A stretch of 35,115 nt of DNA from a virus, in IMG/VR virus record IMGVR_UViG_3300044998_001225, positions 1 through 35,115 of that record; one strand, 5' to 3'. The notes below the pieces were generated by a model. That model was not told where the DNA came from and did no database searches. It worked only from the letters and a program-made list of their open reading frames with translations. Below, in pieces: positions 12,977 through 35,115 of this stretch. A program made the translations under genes and the position numbers. Positions within the stretch are counted from its first letter, which is position 1; each line of letters opens with the position of its first letter.

Positions 12977-13519
12977 CCGCCCCGCTTTCCTGGCCGCGTC
13001 CCTCAAAAGGCGCTGGCGGGCCCGGAACCTGCGCTCGAGCAACCCCATCGGATAGCTGGAGCGCAGGTTCCTCCAGCCCATCAATCCACGGCCCACCATC
13101 AGCCGCGTCCCCGCCGGGTGCAGGACATACCGGGCATAGCTCACGCCCGAGCCGATCGCCACGTCGTAGACCCCGGCCCCGCGCCGGACGAACCGCACCG
13201 ACCGGCGCAACCGCCCGGTCTGGCGGTTGATCGGCAACAGCGGCGCCCTCAGCCGGGCCCTCCCCCGGCCCTTCGTCCCGCGCCTCGAGACGTCCCCCGT
13301 CTTCACATAGTTCACGGCCGCCGACCGCCCGCGGCCATAGGGGTTCCCCATCTCGTCGAGCCGCTTTTGAGAAAGCCCCCCGGCCGTGTTCTCGAAAAGG
13401 TCCTCCCTGCCCGCCCTCGCGAGCTCCCGCACCCCAGCGTCCAAGTCCGCCGCTATCCGCGCAAAACGCGCTTTTTGCGCGGATAGCAGACTGGCGAAGG
13501 AGCCGTGCCGCTTCGTCAC
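12971..13519 (-). CDS. Neck protein, HK97 gp10-like (minor tail/neck)
   Basis: The protein has 182 residues. GTG 13519 overlaps the upstream stop as GTGA. A helical N-terminus is followed by a basic middle (KGRGRARLRAPLLPINRQTG) and 'LRRSVRFVRRGAGVYDVAIGSGVSYARYV', here in two halves, then 'HPAGTRLMVGRGLMGW'. The pattern 'TG.LRrSv...v.Ig..v.YAryvh.G' is that of HK97-gp10-type neck proteins. Such proteins join the portal complex to the tail. The gene carries a perfect 15-bp inverted repeat near its 5' end (13452-13487; see findings). Confidence 0.75.
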   Translation of the reverse strand: MTKRHGSFASLLSAQKARFARIAADLDAGVRELARAGREDLFENTAGGLSQKRLDEMGNPYGRGRSAAVNYVKTGDVSRRGTKGRGRARLRAPLLPINRQTGRLRRSVRFVRRGAGVYDVAIGSGVSYARYVLHPAGTRLMVGRGLMGWRNLRSSYPMGLLERRFRARQRLLRDAARKAGRS

Positions 13520-25384: not shown

Positions 25385-28068
25385 CAGACCTCCTCCCCTG
25401 GCCCGAGGCCCTGAAAGTCAGCGCCGCGGCTAGTGTCACAGTTAGTGTCACGGTTAGTGTCACAGTTAGTGTCACGCCCTTCCGGCCCGTCTTGGCCCGT
25501 GTTTTGAACCTGAAAACCCTTTGGATCGGCCGTATAAGTGTCATTAGTGACACTAGTGACACTAAAATCCCTACCCCCCACACGTGCGCGCGCGCGTGAG
25601 CCCTCTACTTCGTTTTCTTTCTTCGCGCGTTTATATAGGAAATTAGTGTCACTAGTGTCACAGACGCTTGTTTCGGAGAGGTCTGCGTCCGCAAACTTGT
25701 ACAGATCCTGCGTGACACTAACTGTGACACTAGGTGTGACACTAAAACCGCCGTCCTTAGTGTCACAGGCGACCACCTTCAGCGCCCGCCCTTTTCGCCC
25801 CTTCGGGCCGCGCTCGAGCCGGAGCCCGTCCAGGACCTGGCCGACCATGTGGCTCATGGCGATCCCCAGGCTCCGGCGCGGGCTCTTGGCGTCCGAGAAC
25901 CTTTCGGCCCACGCCGAGAACGCCTCCATCGTGATCAGCTGGTCCCACCAGTCCTCGAGGAAGAAGTCCTCGCCGCCGGTCGCGGCGCGGACCTCGGCGA
26001 GCACCGCCGCCCTCAGTGTCCGGTCGTCGTCGTTGGCCGCCCTGAGCTCCTCGAGGTTCCCCAGCAGTCCCGGCACTCCGACCGTCCCGAGGATCCCCGA
26101 GAGCGCCCTCGCCCAGGCCCCGAACCTTGTCGGGGGCGCGTCCCCGTCCGGCGCCCCGGCGTCGAGCCAGCCTTGCACGACCGCCAGGCAGGCCGAGACG
26201 GCCTTCGCGCGGTTCTCGCCCAGCCAGGCCAGGAGGTCCGGGTGCCGAAAGCCGGTCCGTTCTTCCGGCCGCTCCGACCTCGAGTCGAGCCGGACGTAGA
26301 GCGAGCGGCTGACGAAGTCCTCCTCCAGCCGCGCGTTGTTGGCCGTCGCGACGAAGACCGTGCGGACCTCGAGCTCGTAGACCTCGTTCCCGCCAAGGAT
26401 CCGCTCCTCGACCTTCGAGCCGGTGACCATGGCCATGAGCGCCGGCGAGGAGAGCCTTCCTTTGACGTTGTCGATGAGCACGGCCGGGCGGCACGCGGCG
26501 ACCAGCGAGACGAGCGCCTTCTGCCAGTCCTCCTCCCGGCTCGGAGGGGCCTTGACGCCGACCAGGCCGCACCCTGGGTGAAGGCAGGTCTGGGCCGCGA
26601 GCGTCTTGCCCGTCCCTGGAGAGGGCGCGTCGAACACCACGAGCGGCGACGGGCCTTTGAGCCAGAACCGCAGGAACGGGGTCAGCATCAGCGCGAAGGC
26701 CCCGGCCCGGTCGGCCTCGCCCGCCCATGGAAAGTCGCCCAGCAGCTCGTCCAGCAGCCATTCCGCCGCTCTCCTGCCCCCGCCCTCCCACGTCCCGGAC
26801 GGCTCCGCGGCCAGGAAGACCCCGGAACCGGCGTCGTAACCGTTCTCGGTGACGAGCCGCCCGTCCGGAGCCAGGAACGGGCAGTGCGAGACGCCCTTCA
26901 GCGGAGGGGCGAAGGACCACTCGCCGAGCGTCAGCGTCCCCGCCGCCACGTACTTCGGCGGCTGGACCGGCCTCGTCCCTTTGGGAGAGCTGGACGTCCA
27001 GTCCGCGGCCCGGGCCAGGCGCTCGGCCATCGCCGCCTCGGTGAGCGGCCTCACCGCCCCTGCCGCGAGCTCCACGAGCCGCCCGTTCTGGGCGAACCAG
27101 CGCGGCGGGTCGTTGGCCCGGGCGAGGCACGCCAAGGCGTCGTCGAGCACGTCCCTGGCCTGCCTTCCGGCCGTCTCCACGTTCGGCAACCCCGCATCGG
27201 GCCCGTCCAGGAAGAGCACGGCCTTCGGCGCGGGCGCCGGGCCGGGGCCGAGCGCCCGCGCCGCCGCCTTGAAGTCCCCATTGTGCTCGAGCCTGGCGTA
27301 AAGCCCGAAGGCGTCGTACCGCCCCGGCGGCAAGCCGGGCCACTCCGTCGTGTGGACGTGGACGAGGCCGCCGCCGCCGAGGCCCACCGTCGCCGATACC
27401 CCCCGGGGTTTACCGGGCCGCGTATAGTAGCGGAGCCCGCCCGCTTCGCGGAAAAGCGTCCCACCGGCCAGTTCCAACAGTCGGCCGGGGTCGTTCTCGG
27501 CGTTGTAGCGGTCGCCGGGCCGACCGCCCAGGGTATCGGCGGTCTCCGGCGCCGGGAACGAGCCCGGGTCGAGCCAGGCCCCGTCCCGCGCCAGGGACGA
27601 TCCCCCCGCGCCCGGCGGGCAGGACGGCAGGTAGTACAGCCGGGCCGGGTCGGTGTGGGGCTCGGCCAGGCCGCACCCAAGGGCCTCGGTCGCCCTGGCG
27701 CACCAGTCCGGCCACTCGGAGGCCGGGACGGGCCTTGCGAGCGGGAAGACCGCCCGCCACCGCGGCGACTCCGGCGAGCTCCTCCATGTCGTGTGGAGCG
27801 CGTAGGCCAGCCCTTGCTCGTCCCACAGGTCGGCCAGGTCCTCCCAGGCGTGGCCGCCGTCGAAGTCGAGGCACAGGCAGGAGAGGCTCAGGACGGCCTT
27901 GTTGCCGCGCTTGGCCCCCGCCGGGTATTCTGTGGGGCTCCAGCACGGCCCTGTCTTCGGCCCTTCCCGGAACGAGGCCAAGGCCTCCCGCAGGTCGGCG
28001 AACGACGGCGACCAGTCTTTCGGGAAGGCGTCGCGCTCAGACTCGAACTTGCTCGCCCTCAGGCGCAA
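25381..28068 (-). CDS. Primase-polymerase / helicase (replication initiator) with origin repeats in its 3' end
   Basis: The protein has 895 residues. TTG 28068 has GGAGG six bases upstream. The N-terminal domain is AEP/primpol-like: catalytic-type DFD at 68-70 (CLCLDFDGGH), HTTWRSSPESPRWRAVFPL (92-110), and DPARLYYLPSCPPG (140-153). The C-terminal part is an ATPase/helicase: Walker A PGTGKT (484-489), Walker B AVLIDN (529-534), sensor-type VFVATANN, and arginine residues after SRSLYVRLDSR. From ~768 to 880 the sequence is low-complexity (SVTPSVTVSVT, DTNCDTNRDTNCDTS). There the DNA carries the TTAGTGTCAC repeats rather than a conserved domain. It likely opens the origin and primes synthesis. 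Confidence 0.88.
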   Translation of the reverse strand: MRLRASKFESERDAFPKDWSPSFADLREALASFREGPKTGPCWSPTEYPAGAKRGNKAVLSLSCLCLDFDGGHAWEDLADLWDEQGLAYALHTTWRSSPESPRWRAVFPLARPVPASEWPDWCARATEALGCGLAEPHTDPARLYYLPSCPPGAGGSSLARDGAWLDPGSFPAPETADTLGGRPGDRYNAENDPGRLLELAGGTLFREAGGLRYYTRPGKPRGVSATVGLGGGGLVHVHTTEWPGLPPGRYDAFGLYARLEHNGDFKAAARALGPGPAPAPKAVLFLDGPDAGLPNVETAGRQARDVLDDALACLARANDPPRWFAQNGRLVELAAGAVRPLTEAAMAERLARAADWTSSSPKGTRPVQPPKYVAAGTLTLGEWSFAPPLKGVSHCPFLAPDGRLVTENGYDAGSGVFLAAEPSGTWEGGGRRAAEWLLDELLGDFPWAGEADRAGAFALMLTPFLRFWLKGPSPLVVFDAPSPGTGKTLAAQTCLHPGCGLVGVKAPPSREEDWQKALVSLVAACRPAVLIDNVKGRLSSPALMAMVTGSKVEERILGGNEVYELEVRTVFVATANNARLEEDFVSRSLYVRLDSRSERPEERTGFRHPDLLAWLGENRAKAVSACLAVVQGWLDAGAPDGDAPPTRFGAWARALSGILGTVGVPGLLGNLEELRAANDDDRTLRAAVLAEVRAATGGEDFFLEDWWDQLITMEAFSAWAERFSDAKSPRRSLGIAMSHMVGQVLDGLRLERGPKGRKGRALKVVACDTKDGGFSVTPSVTVSVTQDLYKFADADLSETSVCDTSDTNFLYKRAKKENEVEGSRARARVGGRDFSVTSVTNDTYTADPKGFQVQNTGQDGPEGRDTNCDTNRDTNCDTSRGADFQGLGPGEEVW
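25431..25766. repeat. Array of 13 TTAGTGTCAC-type repeats: candidate iteron origin of replication
   Basis: Copies on the plus strand start at 25431, 25442, 25454 and 25466 (about 12-bp period), at 25643 and 25652, and at 25757. A degenerate copy lies near 25535. Reverse copies (GTGACACTAA/G) are at 25547, 25556, 25712, 25724 and 25736. Spacings are 12 bp or 9 bp within groups. TAGTGTCACTA is an odd-length palindrome, so tightly spaced copies form larger dyads. The array lies in the 3' end of the primase-helicase gene and flanks an alternating CG tract (25579-25598) and an A/T-rich patch (25602-25645). Lambda keeps its origin iterons inside the O gene in the same way. A regulator-binding array is the alternative. 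Confidence 0.8.
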
Positions 28069-28770: not shown

Positions 28771-29573
28771 GCGAAAGCCCCCTGGGCCGGGGCGTCGGCC
28801 GCGAACGGGTCGTGCTCCGCCTCTGGGAGCCACGCCGGGCGCGAGGACGCCTTGGACAGCTGTCCGAACGCGGCCTCCCAGACCTCTTCCGGCACGTCCT
28901 CGGGCCGCGCGTGCTCGCGCCCGGTGCCCTTGGCGATCTGGGCCTTCCACGCGGCCCAGGCGTCGTCCGGCGCGGCCCAGCCGCGCTCCGCCAGGAGGCC
29001 AGTGAGCTTGTCGAGGGCCGAAGGGGCTTTCGCGGCCTCCTCCTGCGCCACCCAGGCCGGGTGCTGGCGGAGCTCCTCCATCAGCGAGTCGAGGTACTCC
29101 TCGTCGAACCCGCCCGCGCGGTCCCGCCTGGCGGTCGGGCTCGGCTTGAACGTCACCGGGTCGATGTGGCTGACCCGGGCGTATGTGCTGTAGGAACCGA
29201 ACTTGTTCTTCGTCCTGCCTTGCGCGGCCTCGATCTGGACGAGCTGCCCCTTGGCGCAGTCGAGCAGGGCCTCGGCGAGGCTCACGCAGGAGCTGAGGGT
29301 CGGCTTGCCGGTCGTCGGCTGGATCAGGGGCGTGGTGACGGTCTGCCGGCCGTCCCGGCACTCCAGGGTGACGGCGAGCTTGCCATAGGCCCGCCCGTCG
29401 TCGGTCGTCCCGTAGCGCTCGGTGATGGAGACGAGGCGGCCGAGCAGCGCCTTGCGCTCCTCGGTGCTGCCCTCCTGGCCGCGCTGGATCTTGCCTTGGC
29501 TGACGCGCCAAGAGCGACCGCCGCCGGTCTCGACGTGGTCGGGAATGTTGTCAGTGTGGTTTTCAGTGCTCAT
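28767..29573 (-). CDS. Single-stranded-DNA-binding-like replication/recombination protein
   Basis: The protein has 268 residues and starts at ATG 29573. The central region (RYGTTDDGRAYGKLAVTLEC, QTVTTPLIQPTTGKPTLS, CVSLAEALLDCAKGQLVQIE) reads as an OB-fold. The C-terminal third is linker and Trp/Pro-rich acidic sequence (PAWLPEAEHDPFAADAPAQG), like SSB tails that recruit partners, although a final DDDIPF-type tip is missing. Placement first among the replication genes fits. A weak purine-rich site (AAGAAG) lies upstream. Two GC hairpins lie just before its start. Confidence 0.6.
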   Translation of the reverse strand: MSTENHTDNIPDHVETGGGRSWRVSQGKIQRGQEGSTEERKALLGRLVSITERYGTTDDGRAYGKLAVTLECRDGRQTVTTPLIQPTTGKPTLSSCVSLAEALLDCAKGQLVQIEAAQGRTKNKFGSYSTYARVSHIDPVTFKPSPTARRDRAGGFDEEYLDSLMEELRQHPAWVAQEEAAKAPSALDKLTGLLAERGWAAPDDAWAAWKAQIAKGTGREHARPEDVPEEVWEAAFGQLSKASSRPAWLPEAEHDPFAADAPAQGAFA

Positions 29574-29603
29574 GTGCTGCTTCTTTGTTGTTCTGCGGTC
29601 ACA

Positions 29604-29656
29604 GCCCCGGCCACGAGGGCCGGGGCCGTCCTAGTCAAGCGGGGTTTAAGCCCCGC
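29604..29656 (-). terminator. Two tandem GC hairpins between a 31-codon ORF and the SSB-like gene
   Basis: A 9-bp stem GCCCCGGCC/GGCCGGGGC with loop ACGAG lies at 29604-29626. A 6-bp stem GCGGGG/CCCCGC with loop TTTAAG lies at 29639-29656 and contains the stop codon of the small ORF. There is no T-run. They may attenuate leftward transcription into the replication genes or protect the upstream mRNA. Confidence 0.5.
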
Positions 29657-29741
29657 CGTTGTCGGTGCCCGTGGGAGCCTCGGCGGGCTCGGGCGCGGCG
29701 GTCGCGGTGCCGCCCTGTTCGTCGTCATGCATGTTCTTCAT
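29646..29741 (-). CDS. 31-residue acidic peptide, unknown (possible leader peptide)
   Basis: ATG 29741 has AGGAG about ten bases upstream, one of the better ribosome sites in the window. The product is polar and acidic (MKNMHDDEQGGTATAAPEPA, ending TGTDNGGA) and probably disordered. Its stop codon lies inside the second of two hairpins, so its translation could affect transcription into the SSB-like gene. No homolog is recognised. Confidence 0.5.
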   Translation of the reverse strand: MKNMHDDEQGGTATAAPEPAEAPTGTDNGGA

Positions 29742-29862
29742 GTGTTGTTGTCTCCTCCCCCGCACGGGCCGGGGGAAACCGTGAAAAGTGCCGGGCGGAA
29801 TGAAGAGCCAAAGGCGCCGCCCGGCGAGTGGTCGTCTGCAGGTCTGACGCCTGCGTTTGTCG
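29742..29862. other. Short gap between early leftward genes
   Basis: This gap holds the ribosome site of the 31-codon ORF and short inverted repeats (CACGG..CCGTG near 29762-29783). No promoter match or other gene is seen. Confidence 0.5.
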
Positions 29863-30204
29863 CTACGAGAGGTAGGAAGCAAGTCGGATCTGGTGCGTGA
29901 CAGGCGGCAAGGCCACCGGGTCGACGGGGTTGGCCCCAGGCGTGGCGCCAACGGCCAACAACGCATGGCGGAGGCTAGAGCAATAGCCAGACGCCGTCAG
30001 TTGGGCGATGCCGCTTGGATCGGCGGCGATGCCGACTCTGCCGCCTTCTGTGTCGACCCATATGGACAGTCGGCCGCCCGGACGCAGCTGGGCCATGCCG
30101 ATCGCAGCTTTGTTGAACCGCAGCGACTTTTCGGTCAAAACGACCGCGGGGCGCCTTGTGCGACAGCACGAAGCGGGAGGTACGAAAACCTTAAACTCGC
30201 CCAT
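29863..30204 (-). CDS. Early phage protein, unknown
   Basis: The protein has 113 residues. ATG 30204 overlaps the end of the HTH gene by 14 bases. In-frame ATGs at 30216 and 30225 are possible, but only 30204 has a G-rich site (GGATGGGGG) at workable distance. The sequence has strands and helices (AVVLTEKSLRFNKAAIGMAQ, RLSIWVDTEGGRVGIAADPS, AQLTASGYCSSLRHALLAVG). It resembles AbrB-like or small beta-barrel proteins in style only. As the second gene from the leftward early promoter it may be regulatory. Function unknown. Confidence 0.65.
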   Translation of the reverse strand: MGEFKVFVPPASCCRTRRPAVVLTEKSLRFNKAAIGMAQLRPGGRLSIWVDTEGGRVGIAADPSGIAQLTASGYCSSLRHALLAVGATPGANPVDPVALPPVTHQIRLASYLS

Positions 30205-30394
30205 CGTCGCCCCCATCCTGGCCATGCCCGCGCGGCTCGCCGAGCGCTTCCGCCATTCGGAGATATTTGTATACTGTAGGCACGCTGACGTCCATCAGCG
30301 CCGCCAGCTTGCTCTTCGCCAACCCAGTCTGCGCGAGCTCGCGCAGCCGCCTCGCCTCTTCCGGCCCGAACGCCGGTCTGCCTGCCTTGGCCAT
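30191..30394 (-). CDS. Small helix-turn-helix regulator, first leftward early gene
   Basis: The protein has 67 residues. Residues ~5-46 (GRPAFGPEEARRLRELAQTG, LAKSKLAALMDVSVPTVYKY) match the Hin/resolvase C-terminal helix-turn-helix ('GRP..lt.e....v..L...G.s...iA..lgvs..TvYryl'). No recombinase domain is attached, so it is likely a Cro-like or antirepressor-type regulator. The TATACT -10 box ends only 6 bases before the ATG, so its mRNA should be leaderless. It is divergent from the repressor and shares the -35 region with it. Confidence 0.75.
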   Translation of the reverse strand: MAKAGRPAFGPEEARRLRELAQTGLAKSKLAALMDVSVPTVYKYLRMAEALGEPRGHGQDGGDDGRV

Positions 30395-30400
30395 AAGACC

Positions 30401-30430
30401 AGTATAACGGCGGGCTGTAATTTTTGTCAA
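30401..30430 (-). promoter_or_regulatory. Leftward early promoter (PL-like)
   Basis: Consensus TTGACA (30430-30425), 18-base spacer, TATACT (30406-30401) on the minus strand. Transcription should begin at or within a base or two of the ATG at 30394. The block 30414-30433, containing the -35, is repeated in inverted orientation at the rightward promoter (33604-33622), suggesting one repressor controls both. Confidence 0.8.
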
Positions 30431-30452
30431 GACTGTGCCACAATGAATTTGA
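30424..30452 (+). promoter_or_regulatory. Possible repressor promoter, overlapping the leftward early promoter
   Basis: TTGTCA (30424-30429), 17 bases, then a weak -10 (ATTTGA, 30447-30452) four bases before the repressor ATG. The -35 hexamer occupies the same bases as that of the leftward promoter, so the two should exclude each other. A palindrome TGTGCCACA at 30434-30442 is a candidate half-operator. The weak -10 makes this tentative. Confidence 0.4.
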
Positions 30453-30456
30453 AAAA

Positions 30457-31416
30457 ATGCTACTCGTGCCGACCGGGGACATCGGACGCCGCGTGCGCCA
30501 AGTCAGGCTTTCGGTCAAGCCTGTCGCTCCGAAACAACAATGGCTCGCCGAGCAGCTCGGCGTGTCGCAGGCGGTCGTCTCGAACTGGGAGCGCGGCCGC
30601 CACGACCCGTCTCCTCACCACGTGTCTAAGATCGCGCAGGTGCTGGGCGTCGATCCCGGCTTCTTGACGGGTGGATCGACGGTGCGCGCGACGCTTGGGT
30701 CGCCGACGATCCCCGTCGGGTTTCCTATGGCCAGGATCAGGCACGCCGGGACCGTGCCGGCCGGCGACTGGGGCGACCCGCTCGCCTCCGAAGACTTCGT
30801 CGAGGTCGACGTCAGGTTCGACCACCCTCGCCGTTTCGCCGCGACGGTGGTCGGGGACTCTTGCTGGCCGGCGCTTCGGCAGGGCGACCTAACCGTCTGG
30901 CACTCAGACCCGGCCCCGCCGTACAACCTGATCGTCCTTGCCCAACGGGTGGGCGACCATGGGTGCACGGTCAAAGAGCTCGTCTGGGACCCGGGGGCCA
31001 ACCGTCCTGTGCTCGCGCCGGTGAACCCGGCCTATGGCCAGACCGATGACGGCGATGGATGGGCCGTCACAGCCAGACTAGTGGCAGTGGTGCGGCGACA
31101 AGACGGCGTCGAGCAGACTTGGTACTCGCCCGAAGGGCTCAGAGTGAAGTACCTCGCAGGGGCCGAAGCCGCGAAAGACCCCGACGGGGCGGCGTCGCTG
31201 TTGCTTCAAGCTATCGGCGATTCGTGGGACGTGAAGTACACCGAAGAGGGCAAGGCGGCGAACGAAGCGATCATCGACCACGTTGAGCTACCTTCCGGCG
31301 TCGAGGCTCATATCCTCGGCCGGCAAGTTCCGAACGACCTACCCGAAGGCGTTCTTGGAATCGAACGGAAGGCACCCGAAGACCCACTTGGAAAGTTCTA
31401 TGTCTCGCACAAGTGA
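30457..31416 (+). CDS. CI/LexA-like repressor: XRE helix-turn-helix plus S24 autoprotease, extended C-terminus
   Basis: The protein has 319 residues from ATG 30457; an upstream TTG frame (30424) would begin in the promoter. Residues ~10-70 are an XRE domain (QQWLAEQLGVSQAVVSNWER). The S24 domain has the cleavage pair Ala102-Gly103 (TVPAGDW), nucleophile Ser135 (VVGDSCWPALRQGD) and Lys173 (CTVKELVWD). The 38-residue Ser-Lys spacing is as in LexA/CI. It should therefore be cleaved during the SOS response and maintain lysogeny. Residues ~230-319 extend beyond the usual fold and have no recognised match. The next gene starts inside its end. Confidence 0.9.
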   Translation: MLLVPTGDIGRRVRQVRLSVKPVAPKQQWLAEQLGVSQAVVSNWERGRHDPSPHHVSKIAQVLGVDPGFLTGGSTVRATLGSPTIPVGFPMARIRHAGTVPAGDWGDPLASEDFVEVDVRFDHPRRFAATVVGDSCWPALRQGDLTVWHSDPAPPYNLIVLAQRVGDHGCTVKELVWDPGANRPVLAPVNPAYGQTDDGDGWAVTARLVAVVRRQDGVEQTWYSPEGLRVKYLAGAEAAKDPDGAASLLLQAIGDSWDVKYTEEGKAANEAIIDHVELPSGVEAHILGRQVPNDLPEGVLGIERKAPEDPLGKFYVSHK

Positions 31417-31984
31417 CCCGATGGGCATGGCCGCCACGGCCATCACGTTCCTCACCGAAATCGGCCTCGGGTGGCCGGGTGTGGGGAAGCTCGTGGAACT
31501 CTTGGTCGATCAGAAGCCGGGAAAGATCGGATACGCCCCGGGCGCGGGGGCCTCGCCGATCTTGACGGAAGCCTTCGGGACGAAGGAACTCGGGGAAGAA
31601 CGCTTCTCGCTTCGATTCGATTGGACCATCGGCGAGGTGTTCGCCACTCGCGGCCCCAGTGATCAGCGGATTCTCTACCCGCCGATGATGGAAATGGCCA
31701 CGGGGAACACGATGAGGGAACTCGTCGAGGCGATCAACACCAAGAAGGGCGAGCCGTGGATCGTCATGAGGTCCGCGAACTTCTTCTTCGACCTCTTTCC
31801 ACCGGATGAGATTGGGCGCGTGAAGCTCGAAGCGTTCCACCGGATCGACCCTTCCGAATGGTGGACCGACCAAGGCGTGAGCGACGAGGCGGTGACACGA
31901 ATGAGGCCAGGCGGCGCGATCTGGCGGGACATGACCGAGGACGTGGCCGGGCGATTCCAGTGGGTCCTCTTGGGGGTCGAATGA
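31400..31984 (+). CDS. Unknown protein, first gene of the cassette behind the repressor
   Basis: The protein has 194 residues. ATG 31400 lies 16 bases inside the repressor gene with GGAAAG upstream; ATG 31420 is an alternative. A moderately hydrophobic N-terminus (MGMAATAITFLTEIGLGWPG) is followed by a mixed region with many aromatics (FSLRFDWTIGEVFATRG, ANFFFDLFPPDEIGRVKLEA, WVLLGVE at the end). No family is recognised. Codon and base use look less GC-extreme than the neighbouring replication genes, hinting at separate acquisition. Co-transcription with the repressor implies expression in the lysogen. Confidence 0.75.
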   Translation: MSRTSDPMGMAATAITFLTEIGLGWPGVGKLVELLVDQKPGKIGYAPGAGASPILTEAFGTKELGEERFSLRFDWTIGEVFATRGPSDQRILYPPMMEMATGNTMRELVEAINTKKGEPWIVMRSANFFFDLFPPDEIGRVKLEAFHRIDPSEWWTDQGVSDEAVTRMRPGGAIWRDMTEDVAGRFQWVLLGVE

Positions 31985-32310
31985 ATCCAGGCGAGCTTCC
32001 CATCGTGAAGGTTGGTGATCCGGTGAATGTCGGCGGATGGCTCTTCTACAAGACCGAGCCGATGGTCGAGTTCAATCTGGCCGGTGGAATCTTCGTCGAG
32101 GGGCCGGGGGCTGATTGGCTGATCGCCCCGTGGGGAAAAGAAGAGTCCGAACTTTGGGTGTTTATGCGCGGAAACGACGGCAAGAGTAACCCGGGATGGC
32201 GATCCATCCGCAAGGTTGAACCGTACCTTGAACCCACGTCGAAGTCGAACCAAAACGACAAGATATACGCCGCCGTTTGGAACCACCTTCACTTAGGGGT
32301 TCCGCTGTGA
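31981..32310 (+). CDS. Unknown protein, second gene of the cassette
   Basis: The protein has 109 residues. ATG 31981 overlaps the preceding stop as ATGA, so translation is coupled. Features: VKVGDPVNVGGWLFYKTEP, GGIFVEGPGADWLIAPWG, ELWVFMRGNDGKSNPGW. It appears to be a small beta-rich protein with conserved-looking Gly/Trp turns. No family recognised. It is tied by overlaps to both neighbours, suggesting the cassette works as one unit. Confidence 0.7.
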   Translation: MNPGELPIVKVGDPVNVGGWLFYKTEPMVEFNLAGGIFVEGPGADWLIAPWGKEESELWVFMRGNDGKSNPGWRSIRKVEPYLEPTSKSNQNDKIYAAVWNHLHLGVPL

Positions 32311-32765
32311 TCATTTCCTTCGCGTGGACCACGCCCGCCGTGGTGATCGACGAAAAGACCGTCACGCGCCGGGACTGGAAACCGATCACCATCGCCCAGT
32401 TCCAAGGGGCGGCCAGGACGGGCGAACTCGTCGAAGCGTGGGACAAAAGCCCCCGGTTCGGCGGGAAGCGGTTCGGAACGGTTCGGATCGTCGAGGTGAT
32501 CGCCGAAGAGGATTCGCGCACGATCCCCGAAACCGCTTGGGAGGAAGAAGGCTTCCACGTTCTCACGCCACTCGGGGCCAAGATCGGCAAGAGCACGGCC
32601 CGCGACGTTTGGCTTTTCTGGCTTCACGAGAACGATCAGCCGCAAACGGTGGTGAGATTCGAGCTTGTGGAACTGAACGACTACGGGCGCGAGCTTGAGC
32701 GTTCGGCGCGGGCCGCGCTCGAGGCGTCGGGCGGCGTGATGATCCCTCTTCACGAAGCCCTATGA
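32307..32765 (+). CDS. ASCH-like domain protein, third gene of the cassette
   Basis: The protein has 152 residues. GTG 32307 overlaps the previous stop as GTGA. The N-terminus (IISFAWTTPAVVIDEKTVTR, RDWKPITIAQF, then LVEAWDKSPRFGGKRFGTVR, IVEVIAE) fits the small ASCH/PUA-like families in phages and hosts that begin 'isFawt..al..g.KtvTRRdW' and contain 'v.a.dk.pr.GGk.ig.i'. ASCH folds bind RNA or modified bases, and some members are ribonucleases or deaminases. The enzymatic residues cannot be assigned by eye. The best-recognised member of the cassette. Confidence 0.72.
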   Translation: MIISFAWTTPAVVIDEKTVTRRDWKPITIAQFQGAARTGELVEAWDKSPRFGGKRFGTVRIVEVIAEEDSRTIPETAWEEEGFHVLTPLGAKIGKSTARDVWLFWLHENDQPQTVVRFELVELNDYGRELERSARAALEASGGVMIPLHEAL

Positions 32766-33022
32766 CGCACACTTACGGCCTCAAGATCACGAAGGCCGAC
32801 TCGAAAGGCGGGGTGAGGTATCAGCTTGGCCCCGCCTTCAAGGTGTCGGACGACGATCCCGAAACATACGCCCGGTCGATGATCGAAGCGAACATGCACC
32901 CGCTTGGCGCGATCATCGAGCGCGTGCAGGGGGCCACGATCCGCGAGACTCTTGGGCTCGAGGGCGGCGTGATCCTTCGCTTCCATGCTCGAGGGGCGAG
33001 CGCGAGCCGACGTAGGTTCTGA
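32762..33022 (+). CDS. Small unknown protein, fourth gene of the cassette
   Basis: The protein has 86 residues. ATG 32762 overlaps the previous stop as ATGA. Sequence: YGLKITKADSKGGVRYQLGP, YARSMIEANMHPLGAIIERV, GVILRFHARGASASRRRF. It has a mixed alpha/beta pattern and a basic C-terminal tail, which may bind nucleic acid. No family recognised. It ends the tightly overlapping run that begins at the repressor. Confidence 0.68.
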   Translation: MTHTYGLKITKADSKGGVRYQLGPAFKVSDDDPETYARSMIEANMHPLGAIIERVQGATIRETLGLEGGVILRFHARGASASRRRF

Positions 33023-33048
33023 GCCGATCCGAAGTTTCTCGGGGCGTC

Positions 33049-33408
33049 TTGCCGCTGTGGGCCGATTTGCGGCGCGTTCCCGCCAAACTGCTCTCTTATG
33101 CCCTGAGTCACCTCTTCCGGACGTGGCGTGCCGTCTGGCGGGGCGGCGGCGGGCCTTCTCATCGTGTCGCCATACCGAAGGGCACACTCTACGGCCAATG
33201 CGCGGGCGATCACCACGTCGTCGTTCGGCTCGCTATAGCAAGGCTCGAGTTCCATGCCAGGCCTTGGAATCCTGTGACCTGGAGGGGAGCGATCGCAGGA
33301 TGGCTCTTCCTCGACTTTCTGCCAAGGGTCGAGGAAGAGCCGCGCGTGCCGACCCCCGAGCGGGCCGCGCATGAGGTCTGTGAGACCTCGCGCCTAGCGC
33401 AGACCTGA
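33049..33408 (+). CDS. Possible small protein, uncertain coding
   Basis: This TTG-started frame of 119 codons fills the space between the cassette and a convergent small gene. The translation is plausible (LLSYALSHLFRTWRAVWRGG; DHHVVVRLAIARLEFHARPW; TWRGAIAGWLFLDFLP). However, there is no clear ribosome site, and the DNA forms strong hairpins (33302-33341 and 33373-33389). It could be a real gene, or a structured non-coding region whose frame is open by chance. Confidence 0.4.
   Translation: MPLWADLRRVPAKLLSYALSHLFRTWRAVWRGGGGPSHRVAIPKGTLYGQCAGDHHVVVRLAIARLEFHARPWNPVTWRGAIAGWLFLDFLPRVEEEPRVPTPERAAHEVCETSRLAQT
33302..33389. repeat. 14-bp perfect inverted repeat followed by a 7-bp hairpin
   Basis: GGCTCTTCCTCGAC (33302-33315) and its exact complement (33328-33341) are separated by 12 bases. 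A second stem GAGGTCT/AGACCTC with loop GTG lies at 33373-33389. They sit between convergent transcription units and could terminate from both sides or be part of an RNA. Confidence 0.7.
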
Positions 33409-33416
33409 AGGCGGAC

Positions 33417-33539
33417 CTATCTGACGCAGGTCAGACCAAGGAACAAGACCGCCGCCGCGGCCAACAGCCAGACGGCGGCGGCCCACACCCGTCTCGCCGC
33501 TTCCACGCGCAGTTCGAAAGGCGTCTTCTCGCTGGACAT
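33417..33539 (-). CDS. 40-residue single-span membrane protein
   Basis: ATG 33539, TAG at 33417-33419. The charged N-terminus (MSSEKTPFELRVEAARRV) leads into one hydrophobic helix (WAAAVWLLAAAAVLFLGL) and a short end (TCVR). A CATAAT box (33550-33545) ends five bases before the ATG, so a leaderless transcript is likely. It lies inside the immunity region, opposite to its neighbours. Small membrane proteins in this position in other temperate phages may act in exclusion or toxin-like roles; no specific function can be assigned. Confidence 0.65.
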   Translation of the reverse strand: MSSEKTPFELRVEAARRVWAAAVWLLAAAAVLFLGLTCVR

Positions 33540-33544
33540 GGCCG

Positions 33545-33550
33545 ATTATG
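33545..33550 (-). promoter_or_regulatory. -10 box for the small membrane protein gene
   Basis: CATAAT on the minus strand, five bases upstream of ATG 33539. No good -35 at 16-18 bases is seen; TTGGCG lies 22 bases away. The position suits a leaderless mRNA. Confidence 0.4.
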
Positions 33551-33603
33551 CGTAAACAAGCGCCCCGCCCGCCGCCAAGAATTTTGAAAAATATACCTGC
33601 CAT

Positions 33604-33636
33604 GTCTTGACAAAATTATAGCTCATGCCATATCAT
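33604..33636 (+). promoter_or_regulatory. Rightward early promoter (PR-like) with shared operator element
   Basis: TTGACA (33607-33612), an 18-base spacer and TATCAT (33631-33636). The segment 33604-33622 is an inverted, near-identical copy (one base change and one single-base gap) of 30414-30433 at the leftward promoter. It drives the operon beginning at 33672. Confidence 0.8.
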
Positions 33637-33671
33637 CTCCCCGAGGCCGCCTACGGTGGCCGAAGGGAAAC

Positions 33672-34001
33672 ATGAGCAACGCTGACAACCGCACTGCCGC
33701 CCGGAGCGCGATCTCGCGCCGAAGGTATCAAGTCGTCTTTCCAAACCCGGCAGGACCGCTCACTGTCACTCGCACCAATTCGCGTGAACGGGCGAAGAGC
33801 TGCGCGCGCGCGCTGAAAGGGTTCGTCCGCGACACCCTCACGGACGAGGTCTTCTGCCCGCCCATCAACGCGTGGGCAAGCGAGGAGACGCTCGCAGAGC
33901 CAGCCATGAGAAGGCTGATCGACGCTGTCCTGAGCCACGACTGCCGATGCGACCATGACTACATTTGCCCGCGGTGTGCCCGCGCCAGGGGACTTGTCTG
34001 A
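33672..34001 (+). CDS. Small early protein with C-terminal Cys cluster (possible zinc ribbon)
   Basis: The protein has 109 residues. ATG 33672 has GAAGGGA upstream, about 35 bases from the rightward -10 box. The N-terminal part is basic (SAISRRRYQVVFPNPAGPLT, RTNSRERAKSCARALKG). The C-terminus has HDCRCDHDYICPRCARARG, with Cys91, Cys93, Cys99 and Cys102 and two His, likely to bind zinc. As the first rightward early gene it could be regulatory or a DNA-binding protein. No family recognised. Confidence 0.75.
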   Translation: MSNADNRTAARSAISRRRYQVVFPNPAGPLTVTRTNSRERAKSCARALKGFVRDTLTDEVFCPPINAWASEETLAEPAMRRLIDAVLSHDCRCDHDYICPRCARARGLV

Positions 34002-34303
34002 TGGCCTACCCCTACGGCGAGATCCCTCAGTTCCACTTCAGCGCCGAAGTGAAGCTCAACTTGGGCAACTACGAGTCGGGCTCCGTCTCATTCGGGCTCT
34101 CGAGAGTGCCCATCGACGTGACGGCCGAACAGTTCGAGCAAATGCTCGACGGAGTCGTGGTCGACATGCTCGGCCGGGTGCACGACCGCGTGCGAGGCGC
34201 CGTCGTGCAAAAGCTCCGGACGGTCCTCGGGCCGTACGCCGAGAACCACGATCTGGTGCGTTCGCACAATGAGGGCCGCCATGGGCCAGCGGGGCTCCGC
34301 TGA
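34001..34303 (+). CDS. Early phage protein, unknown
   Basis: The protein has 100 residues. ATG 34001 overlaps the previous stop by one base (TGATG). It begins with a strand-rich part (FHFSAEVKLNLGNYESGSVS, FGLSRVPIDV) and continues as a helix (TAEQFEQMLDGVVVDMLGRV). The 'v.lNLGnyEs..vs.gls.vp' opening recurs in small phage proteins next to recombination/exonuclease genes, in my recollection; the function is not known. Coupled to the nuclease gene that follows. Confidence 0.7.
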   Translation: MAYPYGEIPQFHFSAEVKLNLGNYESGSVSFGLSRVPIDVTAEQFEQMLDGVVVDMLGRVHDRVRGAVVQKLRTVLGPYAENHDLVRSHNEGRHGPAGLR

Positions 34304-35115
34304 TGGCCGCCGCCAAAGAAGCCAAGTTCTTGTCGCTCGACCGACTGGGCTACAAGTGGCGCGGCCAAAGGTACGTCCGCGTCTCGACCGTCAAGGCCAA
34401 GAAGTCCACCGGTTCGGCGCTGGTGGACTGGGCCGCGCGGGCGGTCCACGAGGAGGTCAAGCGCCTTGTCCAGCTCCGTCTCGCGGGCGGGATGGGCGAG
34501 ACCGAGCTATACGTCGCGCTCATGGCCGACCAGGTCGGCCAGGCGCACGACCAGCGGCGCGACGAGGCCGCCGACTTCGGCACGGTTTTCCACGAGCTCG
34601 TCGAGCGCCTCGCCGCCGGGCGCCAGGACGCCCTCCATGCCGCCGAGAAGGCGGTCGAGGGGCTCCCGGAAGACCAGCGCGACCGGCTCTGGGCCGACGC
34701 CGAGGCCTTTCTCGACTGGCACGACCGCGCGAGGCCCGAATGGCTCATGAACGAGTTCCACGTCGGCCATCACAACCACGGCTATATGGGGACGTGCGAC
34801 GCGATCGCCAGGATCGAGGGCGAGGACGTCCTGTTGGACCTCAAGACGTCGAAGAACGTGTATAGCGAGTACGCCCTCCAGCTCGCGGCCTACCGCTACG
34901 CCGAGTTCGTCGCGGACGCCGAAACCGGCGACGAGACCCAAATGCCGCAGGTCTCCTCGACCGCCGTCCTCCATGTGCGGGACGGCCGTTGCCGCCTTCT
35001 CGGGGTCCCGGCAGGGGAGCGCGAGTGGGAGGCGTTCAAGGCCTGTCTCGCCTTGTACAGGTTCGACCGGGCCGCCCCGAAAGAGTTCGTCGAACGGGTT
35101 CCCGAAGCCTCGCTC
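34303..35115 (+). CDS. RecB/Cas4-like PD-(D/E)XK exonuclease (3' truncated by window)
   Basis: ATG 34303 overlaps the previous stop; 271 codons are visible and the frame is open at the window end. The RecB-family motifs are in order: GTVFHELVE (93-101, His98 and Glu101), then MGTCDAI (Asp166), LLDLKTSKN (Asp179, Lys181) and QLAAYRYA (Gln193, Tyr197). These are the metal-binding and QxxxY motifs of phage exonucleases. It probably prepares DNA ends for recombination or replication. A short basic stretch (34-52) precedes the domain. Confidence 0.85.
   Translation, partial: MAAAKEAKFLSLDRLGYKWRGQRYVRVSTVKAKKSTGSALVDWAARAVHEEVKRLVQLRLAGGMGETELYVALMADQVGQAHDQRRDEAADFGTVFHELVERLAAGRQDALHAAEKAVEGLPEDQRDRLWADAEAFLDWHDRARPEWLMNEFHVGHHNHGYMGTCDAIARIEGEDVLLDLKTSKNVYSEYALQLAAYRYAEFVADAETGDETQMPQVSSTAVLHVRDGRCRLLGVPAGEREWEAFKACLALYRFDRAAPKEFVERVPEASL

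Follow-up and report, generated by a model that had tools for sequence, protein, structure and literature searches.

Organization of the probable repressor operon

The window analysed here is IMG/VR virus record IMGVR_UViG_3300044998_001225 at its full length (35,115 bases), and all positions below are window coordinates. On the plus strand it carries a repressor gene followed by four small overlapping genes, here named gA to gD. The features of this region are as follows.

30401-30433 (minus): predicted leftward early promoter, TTGACA-18-TATACT, with a shared element GTCTTGACAAAAATTACAGC (consensus scan)
30457-31416 (plus): repressor with an XRE-type HTH and an S24-like domain (profile matches)
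31400-31984 (plus): gA, 194 aa, orphan (codon use +0.36)
31981-32310 (plus): gB, 109 aa, orphan (codon use +0.15)
32307-32765 (plus): gC, YqfB-like ASCH-fold protein, 152 aa (phrog_11705, structure model, residues)
32762-33022 (plus): gD, 86 aa, orphan (codon use +0.29)
33302-33341 (plus): perfect 14-bp hairpin after gD, with 17 pairs in the predicted fold
33604-33636 (plus): predicted rightward early promoter, TTGACA-18-TATCAT, with the same element GTCTTGACAAAATTATAGC (consensus scan)

The minus strand of the window encodes a terminase, a major head protein, a tape measure protein and an endolysin. On the plus strand, the repressor and gA to gD are followed by a stretch that is non-coding or of doubtful coding status, then by two small genes and lastly by a PD-(D/E)XK exonuclease gene that continues past the contig end. 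Because no end repeats were found in the 35,115-base record, the window is probably a fragment. The virus appears to be a temperate tailed phage of the Fimbriimonadaceae (Armatimonadota), judging by the host of the sister prophage described below; as a clue to the host, the terminase led to distant phages only. A tRNA-Arg (tct), which may be a carried gene or an attachment site, lies at 541-616, close to the left end of the contig, and an Rfam search gave no match besides a tRNA.

The repressor matches the PHROGs repressor family phrog_4 (E-value: 2e-20), the domain HTH_3 (E-value: 1.4e-11) and, just under the cut-off, Peptidase_S24 (E-value: 1.6e-4). Its PADLOC matches are confined to the HTH region. 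The four open reading frames behind it, reported by the initial annotation, are coding-like. When all six frames were scored by codon use, with securely identified genes of the same contig as the training set, the frame of each gene ranked top of the six (+0.15 to +0.36 bits/codon, versus -0.72 to +0.09 for the other five frames), with gB having the weakest support of the four. The genes overlap each other by ATGA (gA/gB), GTGA (gB/gC) and ATGA (gC/gD), as annotated; the repressor and gA, said to be joined in the same way, instead overlap by 17 nt (31400-31416) and not by ATGA. The lower GC content reported for these genes relative to their flanks also holds, as the lowest values in the 35-kb contig are found in 1.26-kb stretches starting at 31101-31301 (0.606-0.607).

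A promoter consensus scan of 29500-35115, in which 0.7 sites are expected by chance, found two promoter-like sites only (30430-30401, leftward, and 33607-33636, rightward), and these flank the repressor operon. In the sister prophage, the identical 19-mer GTCTTGACAAAATTACAGC is present at both promoter sites. This shared element makes a good candidate operator for the repressor. Because gA to gD lie between the repressor and the rightward promoter, the early programme should skip them and the repressor transcript should cover them. The scan found no other promoter-like site for these genes on their strand. The proposal that they are co-transcribed with the repressor is therefore likely to be correct, given that the genes overlap and that both promoter-like sites are early promoters.

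The hairpin at 33302-33341 may end the repressor operon. It is one of five perfect hairpins of at least 11 bp in the contig, it has no T-run, and the 181 nt around it have a folding z-score of -4.8. Perfect hairpins are also found at 13452-13487 (15-bp) and 25735-25767 (11-bp), both of which are possible late-gene terminators. The 33302-33341 hairpin is contained in an open frame at 33049-33408 (plus strand, 119 codons) that is a possible fifth gene: it shows one amino-acid difference from the sister prophage and is protein-like in part, with no codon-use support and no relatives outside the same virus in the collections searched.

Relatives of the four proteins

gC belongs to phrog_11705 (E-value: 3.5e-23). 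The model of its family (pLDDT 90.7) is most similar among solved structures to E. coli YqfB and EF3133 (E-value about 0.01, probability 0.99-1.00), and it shares its fold with the YqfB-type ASCH amidohydrolases, with 9kyh and 9kyf as top matches (probability 1.00, TMt 0.64-0.65). E. coli YqfB is an N4-acetylcytidine amidohydrolase with the catalytic residues Lys21, Thr24, Arg26 and Glu74 (PMC9599836). These align with K17, T20, R22 and E81 of gC, such that both proteins have the residues Lys-x2-Thr-x-Arg ... Glu. Unlike YqfB, to which it is about 23% identical, gC is longer and carries the MIISFAWT-like and PR.GG motifs found at the N terminus in the phage family phrog_11705. The Pfam ASCH domain matches 16 of 27 members of the gC family; the gC of the window, taken alone, is unmatched. 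Judging by the model and residues, gC most probably acts on N4-acylated or otherwise modified cytidine, as an enzyme or binder of the YqfB kind.

About 30 other virus contigs encode relatives of gC, as do 15 genome contigs (sister prophage included), mostly without an adjoining repressor gene. Among the genes beside these relatives, named by eye from ORF lists, are replication initiators, methyltransferases and DUF5131-like genes. One relative is encoded by Salisaeta icosahedral phage 1 and another lies in a Gam/J-domain/xis/int operon of another Fimbriimonad prophage. The Fimbriimonad prophage end in contig L063 (226-7324) encodes, with names given by eye from translations, a repressor, a 183-aa gene, a Gam-like protein, an 88-aa gene, a J-domain protein, two small genes, an ASCH protein, an excisionase-like protein and a tyrosine integrase, with most of the genes overlapping. 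Among the 31 virus contigs, only L024 has an HTH_3 gene directly upstream of ASCH (positions worked out from the contig ranges of the ASCH relatives). In this unrelated phage, an XRE-type HTH gene overlaps ASCH by ATGA (L024 3792-4456), a second case of coupling between ASCH and a regulator.

gA, gB and gD have no family match in Pfam, PHROGs or NCBIfam, which bears out the initial view that only one of the four proteins, the ASCH-like one, resembles a known family. None of gA to gD matched the defence models of PADLOC-DB 2.0, and no named exclusion protein was matched by gA, gB or gD in Pfam, PHROGs, NCBIfam or the phages. They have no relatives in the phage collection and, in single-protein scans that pick up close relatives only, were found in IMG/VR in the same virus only. 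gA has no relatives in the genome contigs (scanned with the same reach), the host family or the phylum. Searches of Armatimonadota genomes with gA and gB gave nothing beyond chance level, the phylum matches being weak (E-value 0.007 or worse), short and scattered. A plasmid match to gA and a phage match to gD (E-value 1 in each case) were likewise judged to be chance, and gB does not align with the 'GDPI' gene upstream of ASCH in contig L011. The single-sequence structure model of gA (pLDDT 40.5) was unusable. gD is present in the sister prophage and elsewhere unmatched. Their position makes a role of gA, gB and gD in the lysogen most likely, either in phage exclusion or in host modification.

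Comparison with the ACE_ARM1 prophage

A scan of genome contigs with the ASCH alignment identified a sister prophage, which defines two further features of the window.

CP075364.1, about 2.28-2.29 Mb: sister prophage in the chromosome of Fimbriimonadaceae bacterium ACE_ARM1
31168-31413 (plus): C-terminal tail of the repressor, 82 residues (homology to the sister stops at 31167)
31168-32430 (plus; end approximate): segment apparently replaced relative to ACE_ARM1, comprising the tail, gA, gB and the 5' part of ASCH (alignment, GC)

Over 29770-33630 the two phages are 99-100% identical at the DNA level, with three exceptions: a patch near 30940-31100 where identity falls to ~90%, gD, whose length differs by 43 bp, and the segment from 31168 to ~32430. 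They have in common the early promoters, the repressor core, the 3' part of ASCH, gD and the hairpin region, whereas the genes flanking the immunity region are clearly more diverged. The rightward early operon also diverges (window 34303-35115 versus L046 after 6000), with the PD-(D/E)XK exonuclease gene in the window and Gam-like and J-domain genes in the sister. Near one of its ends, the sister prophage has a tyrosine-integrase-like ORF and then ORFs resembling type I restriction-modification proteins, all named by eye from translations rather than by profile search.

The ACE_ARM1 repressor is 97% identical to that of the window. The core (30457-31167, 237 aa) has the same length in both phages, but the sister protein stops at residue 237, 82 residues earlier, and its gene overlaps the start of ASCH by ATGA. 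The sister prophage thus lacks the repressor tail, gA and gB, and carries ASCH and gD directly behind the repressor. Its ASCH gene differs from that of the window at the 5' end: identity is 67.5% over the first 123 bases and 100% over the following 297. The 5' part of a second Fimbriimonad ASCH gene (contig G039) is about equally far from both (71% and 72%). gD is identical as far as ~33005 and encodes 98 aa in ACE_ARM1 versus 86 aa in the window, where 43 bp are missing near the 3' end.

An abrupt step in identity within ASCH is a signature of homologous recombination. The difference from 31168 to ~32430 (GC 0.609, at the contig's GC minimum for this length) accordingly reads as a recombination mosaic that ends inside ASCH, with breakpoints mapped to within about 110 bases and in which either phage may be the recombinant. 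It could have arisen by insertion in the window phage or by loss in the sister; we infer insertion. The reading frame of the tail is coding-like (+0.26 bits/codon; GC 0.598), and no homologue of the tail was found. A match in contig G279 was judged to be chance, as it lies on the strand opposite a 300-aa ORF whose translation looks like a genuine protein. Of the other repressor homologues viewed, the closest (L068-L070, 51-53% identical) stop at or near the same alignment point. Because neither these nor the sister have the tail, it is unusual and is probably the 3' end of a donor gene that became fused in frame. The initial annotation had proposed a transferred cassette of four genes. Part of the block does appear to be recombinational and of unusual GC content, but the four genes are not one unit and do not travel together, as the sister has gC and gD without gA and gB.

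A candidate accessory slot behind the repressor

The locus is probably a repressor-linked accessory ('moron') slot that is predicted to be expressed in lysogeny. Its genes are co-directional, lie directly behind the repressor and have no early lytic promoter, and its content differs between otherwise near-identical phages. The proposed model is as follows. In the lysogen, the repressor would shut both early promoters via the shared element. Its rightward transcript would continue through the cargo up to the hairpin and early promoter at 33302-33636, such that cargo and repressor would be produced together, with coupled translation. For the sister, this cargo would be ASCH and gD. In the window phage, recombination with a donor arranged as '(end of a gene)-gA-gB-ASCH' would have placed gA and gB before ASCH; with the crossover resolved inside ASCH, the repressor would have gained 82 residues, if the swap ran in this direction. 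The cargo would presumably be of benefit in the lysogen, and the location of the slot favours superinfection exclusion or lysogenic conversion.

Points against this reading are that relatives of ASCH are mostly early or replication-region cargo, so gC could be a passenger, and that the hairpin after gD has no T-run. The initial annotation had considered whether the four genes are standard replication genes in relatives; this is not so for gA, gB and gD, and several relatives of ASCH are indeed cargo of early or replication regions. An unlikely alternative, though the best placed, is that the genes are cargo of the early phase or of metabolism that recombination left behind the repressor and that plays no part in the lysogen. 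The replication initiators, methyltransferases and DUF5131-like genes near ASCH relatives and the Gam/xis/int operon of the other Fimbriimonad prophage are consistent with this idea. In two Fimbriimonad phages, however, ASCH and gD are coupled to the repressor with their frames intact, and the early promoters lie outside the operon.

It is improbable that the genes form a four-gene system dedicated to anti-phage defence and produced in the lysogen, as had been suggested. The position behind the repressor, the small genes of unknown function and the unusual GC content would suit such a system, and some defence operons contain ASCH and EVE domains (PMC7641849). However, no specific sign of defence was found: gC and gD stand without gA and gB, which leaves a four-gene cassette unsupported as a unit, ASCH is widespread as phage cargo, and gA, gB and gD have no PADLOC, Pfam or NCBIfam match. 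Equally improbable is that the tail, gA and gB are recombination debris heading for loss, since despite a tail that resembles a fused gene end, the lack of relatives for gA and gB and the 43-bp difference in gD, every frame is intact, codon use is coding-like, stops and starts overlap at the junctions, and the repressor-gA-gB-ASCH arrangement recurs in a second contig of the same virus.

An accessory slot expressed from the repressor transcript is thus the preferred reading. A more doubtful extension is that gA and gB are a new exclusion or conversion pair gained by recombination through the ASCH gene that both phages carry, and that ASCH genes repeatedly act as sites of exchange downstream of phage regulators; the ATGA overlap between the HTH gene and ASCH in L024 points in this direction. 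For a little-studied phylum, the two phages offer a clean natural comparison, as their immunity regions almost match while the cargo behind the repressor differs. If gA and gB alter superinfection or the lysogen, the pair would show how Armatimonadota phages gain conversion genes and would give a function to orphan genes. gC, in turn, gives a direct enzymatic prediction for phrog_11705, a widespread uncharacterised phage family.

A precedent for such a locus is phage Fc02, in which accessory genes in or beside the repressor transcript are transcribed in the lysogen (PMC9936078). Like e4 and olg1/olg2 of Fc02 (PMC9936078), the genes of the window are small, adjoin the repressor on the lysogen side and vary between close relatives. 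Unlike Fc02-type loci, the window has no match to a named exclusion gene, and the change affects more than the cargo: the repressor is lengthened and the following gene has a different 5' end.
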